Part shown: one piece after another, positions 11,117-51,172 of the stretch
Numbering within the stretch: the stretch's first letter is position 1
How the letters are laid out: every line of letters starts with the position of its first letter
Source of the DNA: Bacillota bacterium
Lineage (GTDB): Bacteria; Bacillota; Limnochordia; DTU087; JAAYGB01
Direction: 5' to 3'
Assembly: GCA_012727955.1 (NCBI GenBank)
Contig: JAAYGB010000036.1
Coordinates: forward strand, 1-64,000
DNA length: 64,000 bases
Notes under the pieces: model-generated
What the model saw: only the letters and a program-made list of their open reading frames with translations
Databases searched by the model: none
Told to the model about the DNA's origin: nothing
Program-made: the position numbers and the translations under genes

Positions 11117-11824
11117 TCATTCCGGGGAATTAGCAGACCCCACCTCAAGGTCATCGCTATCCGCGTGCATCAGCCTTTCCCCTGTCAGATAGTAAACTAC
11201 GCTTTCGGCGATGTTAGTTGCATGATCGCCAATGCGCTCTAAGAATCGGGCCACGAAGAGCAGAGTAACTGCTTGCGTGGCTCGATTGCTGTCTCCGCCC
11301 TCGGCAACAAAGCCCAGCAGTTCTTCATGGAGAAAATGATAGGTCTCATCGACGCTGTGATCCATCAGCAATACTTCCCGAGCCTTAGCGGCATCTTGAT
11401 GGACGAAGGAATCCAGGCAAGCCTGGACCATGATCTCGATGTGTTTGGCGATGTGGGGAATGTCGATCAAGGGCTTGATCAGCGGTGAATCACCGATTTG
11501 GATGGTGGTTTCCGCAATGTTGGAGGCCAGGTCTCCCATCCGCTCTAAATCCCGAATCGACCGCAGGATGCAGTAAATCCGGCGCAGATCCCGGGCTACC
11601 GGTTGAAACATCGCAATAACCTGCAGACCTTGCCTTTCCAACTCTACTTCTAACTCATCAATGATATCGTCATCCTCGACAACCTGCCGAGCCAAGTTAA
11701 GATCCTGTTCCAGCAACGAGCGGACGGCACTGTGGAGGCTTTTTTCCACGAGGCCGCCCATGGTCAACAGCGATTGTTCGATGCGGCGCAGGGCTGCATC
11801 CAAAGCTTCACGGGGCACTGTCAT
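11117..11824 (-). CDS. phoU: Phosphate signalling protein PhoU
   Basis: A cytoplasmic dimer of two three-helix bundles that, in studied bacteria, passes phosphate status from the Pst transporter to the PhoR kinase. Both PhoU repeats keep their metal-binding signature: DLERMGDLASNIAE in the first half and FLERIGDHATNIAE in the second. Length about 235 residues. Starts at 11827 (GTG), 11824 (ATG) and 11818 (GTG) are possible; the last is best spaced, eight bases from GGAAGG, and gives a normal N-terminus. It is the last gene of the phoPR-pst-like operon, 21 bases after the PstB-like gene. PhoU looks fully functional, in contrast to the transporter genes beside it. Confidence 0.93.
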   Translation of the reverse strand: MTVPREALDAALRRIEQSLLTMGGLVEKSLHSAVRSLLEQDLNLARQVVEDDDIIDELEVELERQGLQVIAMFQPVARDLRRIYCILRSIRDLERMGDLASNIAETTIQIGDSPLIKPLIDIPHIAKHIEIMVQACLDSFVHQDAAKAREVLLMDHSVDETYHFLHEELLGFVAEGGDSNRATQAVTLLFVARFLERIGDHATNIAESVVYYLTGERLMHADSDDLEVGSANSPE

Positions 11825-11845
11825 CACCTTCCATGCAACAGGGGC

Positions 11846-12601
11846 TCAATCGTTATAGTGTTCGGTTATAAACCTTTCCGTGGCGCTATTGGCCGGTCGC
11901 TCCAGCACCTGGGCGGTGGGGCTGATTTCCACCACTTGCCCCCGGTGCATAAAGATCGTGACATCCGTCAGTCGAGCCAGTTGCCTTACCTGATTGGTGG
12001 CAATGATGACTGTACACTTACTGGAGGCACGGCGCAGGGCCTTATCCAGCAGGTCCGTCTCCACGGGATCTAGTCCTCCTCCTGGTTCTGCCCACAGGAT
12101 GTGGGTGGGGCTAACGGCCAGGGCGGAGGCTAGGGCCAGTCGGGGTATTTGGGCAGGACAGACGCTGGCAGCAGGTTCACTGAGCCTGGGTCCCAGCTCC
12201 TCCCATAGGTCGACGGCCTCCAGGGCTTGCTCTACCCGGTCGGCCATGGCCACCGGGCGGGACCATCGTCGAATCCGCAGGCCCGTGGCCACATGATCGT
12301 AGATGGACCCCGGCAGGGGCAGGGGGTTGGATGGGATGGTTACCACCATCTTGCGAATTTCCTGGGGTTTGGTCTTGCGGGAGTAGACCTTCTGGCCTTT
12401 GTAGAAGACCTGTCCCGATACGTCGATGGGGCCGTCTAGCTCTAACATACGATTCAAGGCCCGCAACAGGGCAAGGATCCCAGAGTTACGATCCCCCAAG
12501 AGGCCCGTGACCTGCTGGTCGGGAAAGTCTATGGTAACATTGGAAAACAAGGTTCTTCCGTTCTGGACAACGGTAAAATCTTGACAGCGTAGTTCACTCA
12601 C
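11846..12601 (-). CDS. Degenerate PstB-like ABC protein without ATPase motifs
   Basis: Clearly derived from PstB, the phosphate-transporter ATPase: it keeps RALNRM after the P-loop position, SIYDHVATGLRIR, ALAVSPTHIL and EPGGGLDP. Every catalytic motif is altered. The Walker A segment reads GDRNSGILA (residues 36-44; DNA 12470-12496), with Ile for Lys; the Q-loop glutamine position is Ser91; the LSGGQ signature reads VCPAQIPR (147-154); the Walker B aspartate is Ala171, though the following Glu172 and the D-loop LDP remain; the H-loop histidine is Asn203. ATP binding by the normal mode is unlikely. The frame is intact at 251 residues. GTG 12601 is chosen, eight bases after GGAG, overlapping the pstA-like stop by eight bases. 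The clean frame and coupling suggest a retained non-catalytic role. Confidence 0.9.
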   Translation of the reverse strand: MSELRCQDFTVVQNGRTLFSNVTIDFPDQQVTGLLGDRNSGILALLRALNRMLELDGPIDVSGQVFYKGQKVYSRKTKPQEIRKMVVTIPSNPLPLPGSIYDHVATGLRIRRWSRPVAMADRVEQALEAVDLWEELGPRLSEPAASVCPAQIPRLALASALAVSPTHILWAEPGGGLDPVETDLLDKALRRASSKCTVIIATNQVRQLARLTDVTIFMHRGQVVEISPTAQVLERPANSATERFITEHYND

Positions 12602-13406
12602 ATTGGTCACTCCAAATAGTGAAGAAATGTCCTGGGCCGGTGTAGACCTCCCAGCTGCGACGAGATAAGCGATAGGCGATATGGTTAATGATCATACTCA
12701 TGCCCAGCAGCAACAGGAGTTCCACCGTAGTGATCTGTAAAGCGGTGGGAGTACCCGATGCTGCCGCCCACCCCATCCACAGTTGGGCCGGGGGGAACAT
12801 CCAATGGGGGGCAAAGATGCCAATCAACAGAACCTGCCCCAGGATCCTGGTGGTGAGAAAGGGAACCAGGTCCAAGGTATGGTGGAGCGCCTGCTTCCAA
12901 TAGATGATGCGCACAATCTGCCAGCGGGTGGCCCCTAAACCCTGCATTGCCTGCCAGGTGACCTGTCTTGTGGCAGCCATTCGGTTCAAAGAGTAATGGG
13001 CAAACCAGCTGCCGTTGGCGATGACCACTAAGGCCAAGGCGGTACCGGTGGGGTGGTTGGTGCGCTGCAGGATTAGTCCGCCGACGGGAATGAGGAGAAT
13101 TGGCGGGATGGCAGCAATGGCCGCAATCAGCCGCCGACTGCGACGAAACCACCGATTTGATAGGCTAGCGCTGATTACTACTACCCCCAGGAAGATCACC
13201 GTTGCGATCAGGGCTAGACTAAAGGCGGTGAAGAGACTGCTCTGGAAGATTGCCATCAGCAGATTCCAGTCTAGCCGGATCTCTTCCATCCCACTGACGC
13301 TCAGCGCGCGGAAAATTAAGAATAGGAAAAGGCCAAAGGGTAATAGGATCGGAAGGCTGGCTGGTACATACATTCTCAAAACATTAGGTCTGCCAAAGCG
13401 ACGCAT
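12594..13406 (-). CDS. PstA-like permease subunit, diverged
   Basis: A 270-residue integral membrane protein with about six hydrophobic helices and an ABC-permease coupling loop, WQAMQGLGATRWQIVR, preserving the central glycine that docks on the ATPase. It follows the PstC-like gene and precedes the PstB-like gene, the usual pstA place. In canonical PstA the helix after this loop carries an RxxGE motif; here it reads RILGQ, so the arginine stays and the glutamate is Gln. ATG 13406 overlaps the upstream stop by one base (TAATG) and is served by GGGGAGG. The function as phosphate permease is doubtful; a structural or signalling role with the neighbouring proteins is inferred. Confidence 0.8.
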   Translation of the reverse strand: MRRFGRPNVLRMYVPASLPILLPFGLFLFLIFRALSVSGMEEIRLDWNLLMAIFQSSLFTAFSLALIATVIFLGVVVISASLSNRWFRRSRRLIAAIAAIPPILLIPVGGLILQRTNHPTGTALALVVIANGSWFAHYSLNRMAATRQVTWQAMQGLGATRWQIVRIIYWKQALHHTLDLVPFLTTRILGQVLLIGIFAPHWMFPPAQLWMGWAAASGTPTALQITTVELLLLLGMSMIINHIAYRLSRRSWEVYTGPGHFFTIWSDQCE

Positions 13407-14194
13407 TATTCCACTCCTCCCCAAAGAGGTCTGCGACAAGCCCCAAGTTGGGTCACAGTATGGATTGTCAGTAAGATTAACAGGGGGACCTTGTGGGAGG
13501 CAATGTGAGATACCAGCAAAGGCCCGAGTCGGCCCACTAGATCCGCTGAAATGCTGGTAGCCAAGGTCACGGGAGAATGGAGGATCAGAAGAGATATAGC
13601 TCCTTCCAGTGCTGCGAAGGCCATGATGGGAAGAAGGTTACGAAAAGTAGCCCTTTGCGCCTTGGGGATGATGAGGATCTGAAATATCTGCCTCCGAGAA
13701 CCTCCCAAGCCGAAAAGGGTTTCTCGCCAGGTTGCTGGAGTAGACTCTAAGTTTGCCAAAATCTGAATTGTCAACCTGGGGAAGCTGATACTGCCAAGAA
13801 CAATGGCGAGGTAGACAATCGAGGCTGTTGGAGACCAGATTCTGGTTGAGGCCAACAGGGGAACGGCAGCGGCAAATCCCCACAGGGTTAGGGGGGATTG
13901 CGCAATCACCAGTAACACCGTAAACATTTTCTCCTTCGCGGTGTGGGGCAACATGAAGACACACACCGCGGAAAAAAATGCTAGGGGTAGGGCCACGATG
14001 ACCACCAGCAAAGCTACTGTGATGGTACCAGCAATGGGTATCTCCAGATTGCCCGCACTCAGAGAGGGGATATTACCGCTGGAGCCTGCTGTCGGTAAAG
14101 CCAGAATGATAGCCGCCAAACAGACTGCCACGGCGATAACAATGACCAACGACTCTGAGCGCGAGACCTTCACCTCACTTTGTACTTGCATCAT
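13406..14194 (-). CDS. PstC-like permease subunit, diverged
   Basis: A 262-residue membrane protein with about six hydrophobic segments, shorter than typical PstC (about 300). The coupling loop RETLFGLGGSRRQIFQ is recognisable. In canonical PstC the following helix has GRALGE, whose Arg and Glu are needed for phosphate transport in E. coli; the aligned segment here is AFAALEG, which keeps Glu but not Arg. The gene lies 35 bases after phoR, where pstS would normally come first; no periplasmic phosphate-binding protein is encoded between phoR and this gene. ATG 14194 or 14191 follows GAGGAGGG. The PstC label is from gene order plus weak similarity. Confidence 0.75.
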   Translation of the reverse strand: MMQVQSEVKVSRSESLVIVIAVAVCLAAIILALPTAGSSGNIPSLSAGNLEIPIAGTITVALLVVIVALPLAFFSAVCVFMLPHTAKEKMFTVLLVIAQSPLTLWGFAAAVPLLASTRIWSPTASIVYLAIVLGSISFPRLTIQILANLESTPATWRETLFGLGGSRRQIFQILIIPKAQRATFRNLLPIMAFAALEGAISLLILHSPVTLATSISADLVGRLGPLLVSHIASHKVPLLILLTIHTVTQLGACRRPLWGGVE

Positions 14195-14229: not shown

Positions 14230-15624
14230 CTACTCTGCTCTGGGCAGAGTCACTGTAAAGGCGGTACCTTCACCAAGTTCGCTTTCCACCGAAATAGTGC
14301 CCTTGTGTCTTTCAACGATGTGTTTCACGATGGCCAGACCCAGCCCCGTACCTCCCATTCCCCGAGACCGGCCCTTATCCACTCGATAGAACCGCTCGAA
14401 AACTCGAGGAAGGTGTTTGGCAGCAATCCCGACTCCATTGTCGGCGATTTCCACCACAATTTCCTTAGCAGTGGTCTCGATGACATTAACCCACACACTA
14501 CCCCCGGCTTCCGTGTACTTGACTCCATTGTCGATCAGGTTAATAAAGACCTGATGGAGCATCTGCTCATCGCCGGCCACCGGCGGGAGCTCCGGGGGAA
14601 TGTCCCTGTGGATAGTGATGTTCTTAGCTGTGGCCTGGGGGCCACAGGTGGCAATGCTGTTTTCCAAGACCTGTCTTAGGTTTACCGGTTCTGGTTTCCA
14701 GGCTTCGTTACTAGCCTCAATTTTCGACAGCTTCAAGAGGTCATTGACAATCGCCACCATACGGTCTGTTTCCCGGGCAATAATGGGAAGAAAATGGGCG
14801 ATGCCCTCGGGATCCTCAGCGGCCCCATCGCTGAGGGTTTCCACAAACCCTTTAATTGACGTTAAGGGAGTCCGCAGCTCATGGGAGACATTGGCCACAA
14901 AATCTGACCGCATCTGCTCCAGACGCTTAAGTTCCGTCACATCGTGGAGGATGGTGGCTACTCCTACGGCGTTACCCCGCTCGTCGGTAATGGGGGTCGC
15001 GTGGGCGCGCATAATTCTCTGGGAGGGGGTAAAAAGGTTCACTTCTTGTACCGAAACCGCCTTTTCTCCCAGGGCCTCGTTAAAAGCCTTAATTAGGTCG
15101 TAATTGCGGACAATGCTCAGTAAATCCTGTCCTTCCAAATCGACATCGGGATCGACGCCCAGGAGACTGCGGGCCGCGGGATTGCTCAGAATAATTCGCA
15201 GTTCCTGATCAACGATAATCAGTCCGTCGATCATCGTCGCTGTGATCCCACTGAGCTTGATCCGATTGGCTTCCGCCTCCGCCATAGCTTCTCGATACTG
15301 GCTGGTCATGTCGTTAAGGGCATCGGCCAGCAACTGTAGGCTATGGCTGGTATTAGGCGCGAGCCTCACCTTCATATCGAAGTTCCCAGCGGCAATGCGG
15401 CGAATGCTGCCCAGGAGTTCTTCGAAGGTGAGGGATAGCTCCCGGCGGACAAAGTACAACACAATTCCCAAAGAAACTACCAACAATACAGACAGGATAG
15501 CCGCGCTGGGAACAAACTCTGGCACTAATTGGGGAAGGACATATCGGGCCACGGCTAATCCAATAGCGTTTACACCGGCGAGAATAGCTAAAATCCGCGC
15601 CAGTACCGGATCTTTTAGACTCAT
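14230..15624 (-). CDS. phoR: Phosphate-regulon sensor histidine kinase PhoR
   Basis: A 464-residue membrane histidine kinase paired with PhoP. Order of domains: two close transmembrane helices (about residues 8-30 and 40-60) joined by a loop of only about ten residues, a HAMP-like linker, a PAS domain (about 120-225), the HisKA helix with the phospho-acceptor in FVANVSHELRTPLTSIKG, and the HATPase domain with NLIDNGVKY, DNGVGI and GGTGLGLAIVKHI. All catalytic motifs are intact. With no extracytoplasmic sensor domain, it resembles the E. coli form of PhoR that is controlled by Pst and PhoU rather than the Bacillus form with an external PAS domain. ATG 15624 overlaps the phoP stop by four bases (ATGA). 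Confidence 0.9.
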   Translation of the reverse strand: MSLKDPVLARILAILAGVNAIGLAVARYVLPQLVPEFVPSAAILSVLLVVSLGIVLYFVRRELSLTFEELLGSIRRIAAGNFDMKVRLAPNTSHSLQLLADALNDMTSQYREAMAEAEANRIKLSGITATMIDGLIIVDQELRIILSNPAARSLLGVDPDVDLEGQDLLSIVRNYDLIKAFNEALGEKAVSVQEVNLFTPSQRIMRAHATPITDERGNAVGVATILHDVTELKRLEQMRSDFVANVSHELRTPLTSIKGFVETLSDGAAEDPEGIAHFLPIIARETDRMVAIVNDLLKLSKIEASNEAWKPEPVNLRQVLENSIATCGPQATAKNITIHRDIPPELPPVAGDEQMLHQVFINLIDNGVKYTEAGGSVWVNVIETTAKEIVVEIADNGVGIAAKHLPRVFERFYRVDKGRSRGMGGTGLGLAIVKHIVERHKGTISVESELGEGTAFTVTLPRAE

Positions 15625-16304
15625 CTGCGACCCTCAACCTTGTAACCAACCCCATGCACCGTGTGAATGTAACGGGGATTGGTGGGATCGTCGTTCAGTT
15701 TCTGCCGCAAGCGGCGGATATGAACGTCAACGGTCCGGGTTTCACCACCGTAATCATAGCCCCACACCGTCTCCAGCAGCATATCCCGGCTGAGAACCTT
15801 GCCTTGGTTCTTGACCAAGAGTAACAGGAGTTCAAACTCCTTGGGCGTGAGGGCGATGGGTCTTCCGGACTCGGTGACCTCGTGGCGGTCAATATCGATG
15901 ACCAGCTCGTCGAGGCGAACCTGGGTAGTCTCCTCCATAGGATAGGCACGGCGGAGTACCGCCTTGATGCGAGCCATCAGCTCCTTGGGACTGAAGGGTT
16001 TGGTGATGTAATCGTCGGCTCCCATTTCCAACCCAGAAACCCGCTCAGATTCATCACCCTTGGCCGTTAGCATGATAATCGGGGTGTTGGACTCCTTGCG
16101 GATGGCTTTACAGACTTCCCAGCCATCCATGGTGGGCAGCATAATATCTAGAAGCACCAAATCCGGCTGGTTGACCCGAAAGATCTCTAAGGCTTCCGGA
16201 CCATCCTCCGCCATCACAGCGGTGTAACCTTCTTTTTCCAAATTAAACCTGATAAGTTCGCGGATCGATTCCTCATCGTCCACCACTAAAATTAACTCAG
16301 CCAC
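15621..16304 (-). CDS. phoP: Response regulator PhoP (OmpR family)
   Basis: A 227-residue transcription factor: an N-terminal receiver domain with the acidic pocket VVDDEE, the phospho-acceptor Asp in VLLDIMLP, and the conserved Lys in TKPFSPKEL, then a winged-helix OmpR-type DNA-binding domain with TRTVDVHIRRLRQKL and a VHGVGYK ending. GTG 16304 is chosen, seven bases after AGGAG; an ATG further upstream would add an unlikely 16-residue tail. First gene of the minus-strand operon, with a TATAAT box and an 11-bp direct repeat upstream that could be its own binding site. The PhoP name rests on gene order with phoR, phoU and pst-like genes. Confidence 0.9.
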   Translation of the reverse strand: MAELILVVDDEESIRELIRFNLEKEGYTAVMAEDGPEALEIFRVNQPDLVLLDIMLPTMDGWEVCKAIRKESNTPIIMLTAKGDESERVSGLEMGADDYITKPFSPKELMARIKAVLRRAYPMEETTQVRLDELVIDIDRHEVTESGRPIALTPKEFELLLLLVKNQGKVLSRDMLLETVWGYDYGGETRTVDVHIRRLRQKLNDDPTNPRYIHTVHGVGYKVEGRR

Positions 16305-16351
16305 AGGACCTCTCCTTTCAAAACGAGGTTGATTATGGGCAAGCATAGTCA

Positions 16352-16388
16352 ATTATAGAATACCATAAAATTGTTACGATATTGTTGC
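16352..16388 (-). promoter_or_regulatory. phoP promoter with Pho-box-like direct repeat
   Basis: On the minus strand a consensus -10 TATAAT (16352-16357) lacks a matching -35. Upstream are two hexamers, GCAACA (16383-16388) and GTAACA (16372-16377), spaced 11 bp start to start. Bacillus PhoP binds repeats of TT(A/C/T)ACA with this 11-bp period in the same position, so an activator-dependent, self-regulated promoter is plausible but inferred. Confidence 0.45.
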
Positions 16389-16479: not shown

Positions 16480-16768
16480 ATACATCAACAAGAGCAGGAC
16501 CATGATGGGGAGGAGTAGGCGAGATTCTACTTGCCAGAGAGGGAAATCCACCGGCTGAAAGGTTTCCTAAGTCAAGAATCGCCGAAGGTCGCCCCGGAGT
16601 CGCCGTCCCGAAAGTATGGCTTTGCCCGAAGCAGAGCAGTAACGAGTAAGGCCGGCCGGGAGAGCCCGTTATAGCTAAATGAGGGCCCGGTACACTGGGA
16701 TTGTGTCGGGAATTAAGGTGGTAACGCGGAAGCTGCTTTCGTCCTTTTGGCGAGAGGAGCTTTTTTGT
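16480..16768 (+). promoter_or_regulatory. T-box riboswitch, valine specifier, controlling valS
   Basis: An RNA element that senses uncharged tRNA(Val) and lets transcription continue into valS. The conserved T-box AAGGTGGTAACGCGGAAG is at 16715-16732. In Stem I, GATTCT and AGAATC pair around 16525 and 16575, and the specifier loop on the 3' side has GUC (16571-16573), a valine codon followed by a purine. The AGAGAGGGAA and GGCTGAAAGG segments match the upper Stem I motifs. The leader ends in a terminator hairpin (about 16730-16768) whose stem AAGCT...AGCTT overlaps the T-box and is followed by TTTTTT. About 120 bases with no clear further structure lie between terminator and start codon. Confidence 0.88.
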
Positions 16769-40435: not shown

Positions 40436-40550
40436 GTAAGTGCTTGTATGCTGGTTCTACAAGTGCTGCAACCGCTCATGTCAGGCTGTGCAAGTGTCCA
40501 CTGCGACCGCCTGCCCATGGCGAGTCTCAGAGTTAAGGGAGGTGGGCCAG
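40436..40550 (+). ncRNA. Ribosomal protein L21 leader
   Basis: The 115-base leader before rplU has the sequence pattern of the L21 leader RNA of Firmicutes: the segments AAGTGCTTGTATGCTGGTT, ACAAGTGCTGCAACCGCTC and GCGACCGCCTGCC can fold into the expected hairpins (GCTTGTA with TACAAGT, and GGCGG-type pairings). In studied species it is thought to bind L21 and lower translation or transcription of the rplU operon. Assignment is from memory of the motif. Confidence 0.7.
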
Positions 40551-50922: not shown

Positions 50923-51172
50923 AAATTGTGTATACAAAGTCGATGCAGAGGAGTAGTACTCCGAACCCGATTCTGACAGAGAGCCGATGGGTGGTGGAAA
51001 TCGGTGAATTGGCCGGGGGAATCTCGCCTCGAAGACTCCGCAGTGAAGAACATCCTTCCTAGCTGTGGACGGTTGACGCCGTTATCGTTAAAAAGTGGGC
51101 AGTGGGGAACACTGTCAAAATGGGTGGTACCGCGGGTAACTCTCGTCCCTAATGTGGGATGGGGGTTTTTTT
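50923..51172 (+). promoter_or_regulatory. T-box riboswitch, leucine specifier, controlling leuS
   Basis: Senses uncharged tRNA(Leu). The T-box sequence AAAATGGGTGGTACCGCGGG is at 51117-51136. In Stem I, GGAGT (about 50950) pairs with ACTCC (51035-51039) and GATTC with GAATC; the loop between them on the 3' side has CUC (51028-51030), a leucine codon followed by G. AGAGAGCCGATGGG and TGGAAATCGG are upper Stem I motifs. The terminator is a 10-bp stem (51140-51149 with 51156-51165) followed by seven Ts, and it competes with the T-box pairing. Confidence 0.88.

Follow-up and report, generated by a model that had tools for sequence, protein, structure and literature searches.

The phoB–phoR–pstC′–pstA′–pstB′–phoU cassette may encode a non-transporting Pst-like complex which is kept for PhoR signalling via PhoU; we give this reading, in which the function is a predicted one, a probability of about one half. 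The cassette is located in the window, i.e., the whole 64,000-nucleotide stretch of DNA analysed here. In the proposed arrangement, the membrane complex would no longer pump phosphate, and its remaining role would be to keep PhoU, and via PhoU also PhoR, anchored at the membrane. The link between transport and signalling that is usual in the Pst–PhoU–PhoR system would thereby be broken. So far, the question of whether PhoR reads transport or the Pst conformation has been argued from laboratory mutants, and a natural lineage without the ATPase residues and the binding protein, but with PhoU and PhoR, would separate signalling from transport. If this reading is true, an ABC importer can turn into a dedicated sensory scaffold. 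For annotation, a gene labelled pstB in these genomes should not be taken as evidence of high-affinity phosphate import.

Organisation of the cassette

The six genes form a compact operon on the minus strand, with short gaps and overlapping frames. phoB (15621..16352) encodes an OmpR/PhoB-type response regulator (PF00072 and PF00486; 265.5 of 296.2 bits on TIGR02154) and overlaps by 4 nt with phoR (14230..15624), which encodes a PnpS-type histidine kinase with PAS, HisKA and HATPase domains (423.3 bits on NF046044, PnpS, above the cut-off of 400). At the other end, 18 nt after pstB′, phoU (11117..11827) encodes a normal PhoU (TIGR02135, 200 bits, above the cut-off of 130.25; PF01895, 9.6e-47). 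PhoR and PhoU pass the cut-offs of their families, with HisKA and HATPase present in PhoR, and PhoB, too, has a normal appearance. The set of genes expected for a PstSCAB importer is not complete: pstS is absent from the window cassette, and the two permeases fall under their family cut-offs.

PstC′ (13406..14194) is a degenerate PstC-like permease with E = 0.0012 and 17.9 bits on TIGR02138, the cut-off being 196.45. In the permease alignment, the canonical motif GRALGET has Phe in place of its Arg and retains its Glu; the best relatives of this protein across the class include the PstC′ of a sister family. PstA′ (12594..13439) is a degenerate PstA-like permease with a PF00528 score of 21.7 bits, under the cut-off, and no NCBIfam match; it retains the coupling-helix-like segment LGATRWQIV, and the canonical R..GET motif reads R..GQV. 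The likelier start of pstA′ is an ATG near 13406, which overlaps the pstC′ stop and has GGAGGAG upstream. This degeneracy of both neighbouring permeases was absent from the earlier sequence-only reading of pstB′.

Misassembly of the window locus is unlikely because EamA, phoR, phoB and valS follow the same order in the sister family, without pst′–phoU in between. The window phoB is 65–70% identical to the sister-family phoB. T-box leaders (Rfam RF00230) are located 5′ of valS (16493–16749) and of leuS (50934–51153) in the window, and a ribosomal protein L21 leader (RF00559) occupies 40460–40537.

The same genome possesses a second, canonical operon, pstA–pstB–phoU–phoB–phoR, on contig C41 (locus L053). 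The contig ends upstream of this pstA, before pstC is reached; the PstB encoded there scores 420.3 bits on TIGR00972. The PhoR of this second operon has 555 aa and is only 34% identical to the window PhoR.

Residues and descent of PstB′

The pstB′ gene (11846..12610, minus strand) is an intact ORF for a PstB homologue of 254 aa, if counted from the GTG at 12610. A second in-frame GTG at 12601 with GGAG 8 nt upstream represents a plausible alternative start, which agrees with the earlier placement of the gene at 11846–12601. On TIGR00972, PstB′ gives E = 5.8e-52 and 176.5 bits, below the 343.2-bit cut-off, as compared to 1.5e-18 for the best non-phosphate NCBIfam family, and the top solved structures are the PstB chains 9k3x (E = 5.6e-35) and 9k3s (1.2e-33). 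Judged by these similarities, which are beyond chance, window PstB′ is a descendant of PstB.

When PstB′ was aligned with 29 canonical PstBs of its own class and phylum, all the substitutions and retained segments listed previously were borne out. The canonical Walker A motif GPSGCGKST is changed to GDRNSGILA, with G1 and G6 retained and G4, K, S and T gone (K and S are aligned with I and L). The Q-loop Gln94 is changed to Ser, the signature LSGGQQQR to VCPAQIPR (LSGG to VCPA), the Walker B Asp174 to Ala and the H-loop His206 to Asn; the complete set of residues expected of the PstB equivalog in Walker A, the Q-loop, LSGGQ, Walker B and the H-loop is not present. The lost positions are invariant in 29/29 canonical PstBs, the position after the Walker A Lys being S in 26 and T in 3 of them. 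The segments RALNRM, SIYDHVATGLRIR, ALAVSP and LDP are retained. The residues listed for the five nucleotide-binding/hydrolysis motifs are indeed lost. Present, although their retention had not been mentioned, are E175 (the catalytic Glu), D181 (the Asp of the D-loop) and the Gln of the signature, so some catalytic residues survive.

The suggestion that loss had occurred at exactly the catalytic positions was overstated. Among 84 near-invariant PstB sites, the window protein keeps 6/20 in the active site and 33/64 elsewhere (Fisher p = 0.12), which makes the catalytic focus only a non-significant trend; about half of all these sites, catalytic and non-catalytic, are gone. In the sister family, PstB′ keeps 10–13 of the 20 active-site positions versus 48–53 of the other 64 (p from 0.006 to 0.40, the rows not being independent), and here the focus is clearer because the changes are fixed.

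The pseudoenzyme reading of PstB′ is plausible from its sequence, since the frames are intact, the codons are coding-like and the sister family is constrained; it is weakened by the broad divergence, by the lack of a significant focus of loss and by the retention of E175 and D181. A single-sequence AlphaFold model of PstB′ (pLDDT 39.9) was unusable. No close orthologues of window PstB′, PstC′ or PstA′ occurred among the genomes searched, no other genomes of the window species’ family appeared among the relatives’ search results, and a contig scan for PstB′ orthologues gave only an unrelated Anaerolineales ABC ATPase.

The sister family and phosphate transport in the order

We consider the occurrence of an order with pstS-less and apparently ATPase-impaired Pst–PhoU complexes to be more interesting than the putative window pseudoenzyme itself. 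The sister family (f2), which belongs to the same order, comprises 11 genomes with ten readable PstB′ copies (L103, L057, L104, L105, L106, L107, L108, L110, L112 and L113). Its operon, pstC′–pstA′–pstB′–phoU without pstS, adjoins miaB and mutS; it is split over two contigs in genome G009, and in G011 pstB′ contains an in-frame TGA. In 10/10 readable copies, the Q-loop Gln is changed to Arg, LSGG to LSPG (the signature LSGGQ reading LSPGQ, with one LSPGE) and the catalytic Glu to Asp; five of the ten also lack the H-loop His. All ten retain the Lys of Walker A and the Asp of Walker B, so slow ATP hydrolysis may be possible in this family. Two of the proteins score just under the 343.2-bit cut-off on TIGR00972 (332.3 and 307.9 bits). 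PstB′ is probably the sole PstB of each genome of the family: a canonical PstB query gives about 1e-85 or better, while the next matches fall to 1e-46, a gap which suggests that they belong to other ABC families. The residues of the R..GE(T) permease motif are partly lost in the window and largely kept in the sister family (mostly as R..G(E/D)), and therefore the two systems need not work alike.

The genes 5′ of pst′ in this family (L104, 398–1788; L106, 14295–15692) encode, as read by eye, ExbD-like and TonB-like proteins and possibly also surface proteins of the SLH type; these would be in keeping with an envelope of two membranes in these Bacillota.

Searches of the order’s 12 genomes gave no PstS-type protein (PF12849), with control genomes positive in 13/14 cases, and no PiT transporter (PF01384), again with positive controls. 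An NptA-type transporter (PF02690) is present in 12/12. Across the whole class, PF12849 occurs in 35 of the 73 genomes.

Selection and alternative explanations

For the closest pairs within the sister family, dN/dS (NG86) is 0.048–0.071 for PstB′ and 0.047–0.074 for PhoU, as compared to 0.046–0.079 for miaB/mutS and 0.20–0.29 for PstA′/PstC′. This indicates that PstB′ and PhoU are constrained like housekeeping genes while the permeases drift or adapt: permease dN is about 3–5 times that of PstB′ in this family, whereas the two are about equal in canonical systems. The catalytic loss is seen in window PstB′, and selection was measured for the milder form of the sister family only.

Since catalytic sites of the window protein are not hit significantly more often than the others, a diverging relic is a live rival, although we regard it as rather unlikely. 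According to this explanation, pstC′, pstA′ and pstB′ would have drifted under relaxed selection, given the canonical Pst operon on C41, and would just not have picked up stops so far. This fits the loss of conserved sites without significant focus on the active site, the accompanying degeneration of the permeases and the very long terminal branch of PstB′ (5.8 changes per site in a tree without active-site columns). However, the three consecutive frames of pstB′, pstA′ and pstC′ are all open, while simulated neutral decay to 37% identity yields a mean of 6.8 stops in pstB alone, the median number of substitutions up to the first stop being 29 and at least one of the 200 runs being stop-free. 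In-frame codon usage in pstB′ (0.665 versus 0.51 in the other frames) resembles that of the neighbours and is coding-like, although it is weak in pstC′ (0.543). Moreover, a comparable system is kept under strong constraint in the sister family.

Two further explanations leave PstB′ a part in transport. It is well known that one of the two sites can be degenerate in heterodimeric ABC transporters, and the retained catalytic Glu and D-loop Asp would be in line with PstB′ pairing with the canonical C41 PstB in an asymmetric dimer that tunes or half-replaces the active Pst transporter. We consider this improbable, as PstB′ is encoded beside permeases and a PhoU of its own, apart from the canonical operon, and as the sister family has the degenerate PstB alone, hence no partner, even though two non-equivalent tandem PstBs exist in E. 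faecalis (PMC12096839). Slightly less probable still is a transporter or channel which works with an altered substrate or mechanism; it would be independent of ATP in the window, and in the sister family it would be a slow ATPase. The retention of the permease architecture and of coupling-helix-like segments, together with the Walker A Lys, Walker B Asp and mostly kept R..G(E/D) residues of the sister family, would agree with it; the absence of pstS from the cassette and of PF12849 from the order, the fast evolution of the sister-family permeases and the lack of a recognisable nucleotide site in window PstB′ speak against it.

Proposed mechanism and comparison with known systems

For a signalling complex without transport, we suggest that PstB′ would not hydrolyse ATP but would still bind PhoU and assemble with PstC′/PstA′, in which the coupling-helix-like segments are kept. 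A locked, probably inward-open complex would bias PhoR to the phosphatase (“phosphate sufficient”) state, from which it might be released by another input, e.g., the PhoU state or the NptA-type transporter. By the E. coli model, the loss of ATP-binding residues in window PstB′ would favour the open, inward state, that is, the sufficiency signal. The E. coli PstB mutants Q160K and E179Q are both transport-dead and have opposite PhoR signalling outputs (PMC5775613), which makes a signalling-only Pst complex plausible. These mutants resemble our systems in combining a transport-dead PstB with a defined signalling output, and the sister-family change of Glu to Asp falls at the E179 position; they differ in being engineered single changes, whereas the window and sister-family proteins carry many natural ones. 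The NptA-type class has been reported with PhoU-like regulators that act on phosphate two-component systems in S. aureus (PMC13170248).

In comparison with PstSCAB–PhoU–PhoR/PhoB, the window cassette matches in its genes and their order except for pstS, but its PstB lacks the nucleotide-binding/hydrolysis residues and its permeases are far under the cut-offs. In the degenerate sites of heterodimeric ABC transporters, the catalytic Glu, H-loop and signature residues are naturally substituted and one competent site is kept. The sister family has no PstB besides the degenerate one, and a homodimer would therefore be affected at both of its sites. The tandem PstB1/PstB2 of E. faecalis are similar to our case as additional, functionally non-equivalent PstBs, but neither of them has lost any of the four ATPase motifs (PMC12096839); the same paper cites a pst locus without pstS in another bacterium. 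A literature search on PstB Walker A mutants, pseudo-transporters and PstSCAB cryo-EM, with subscription journals mostly outside its range, gave no description of such a natural system.

Origin of the degenerate systems

We tentatively propose, at less than even odds, that in one order the Pst complex was turned into a pstS-less, ATPase-impaired or ATPase-dead PhoU–PhoR signalling platform, perhaps twice independently, and that uptake was passed to the NptA-type transporter. A common origin of the window and sister-family proteins is suggested by two changes found in both, P152 and A204 (10/10 sister-family copies, 0/29 canonical PstBs), but among the sites with a fixed sister-family change where the window is also changed, the same residue occurs in only 2/9. 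In the tree without active-site columns, window PstB′ groups with the second, intact PstB of family f10, and its grouping with the sister-family PstB is rejected (AU p = 0.013, the window branch being very long); the PhoU tree gives no decision (AU p = 0.22 for the same grouping). Family f10 (L054, L055 and L056) has two intact PstB genes, which flank one pstC–pstA set.
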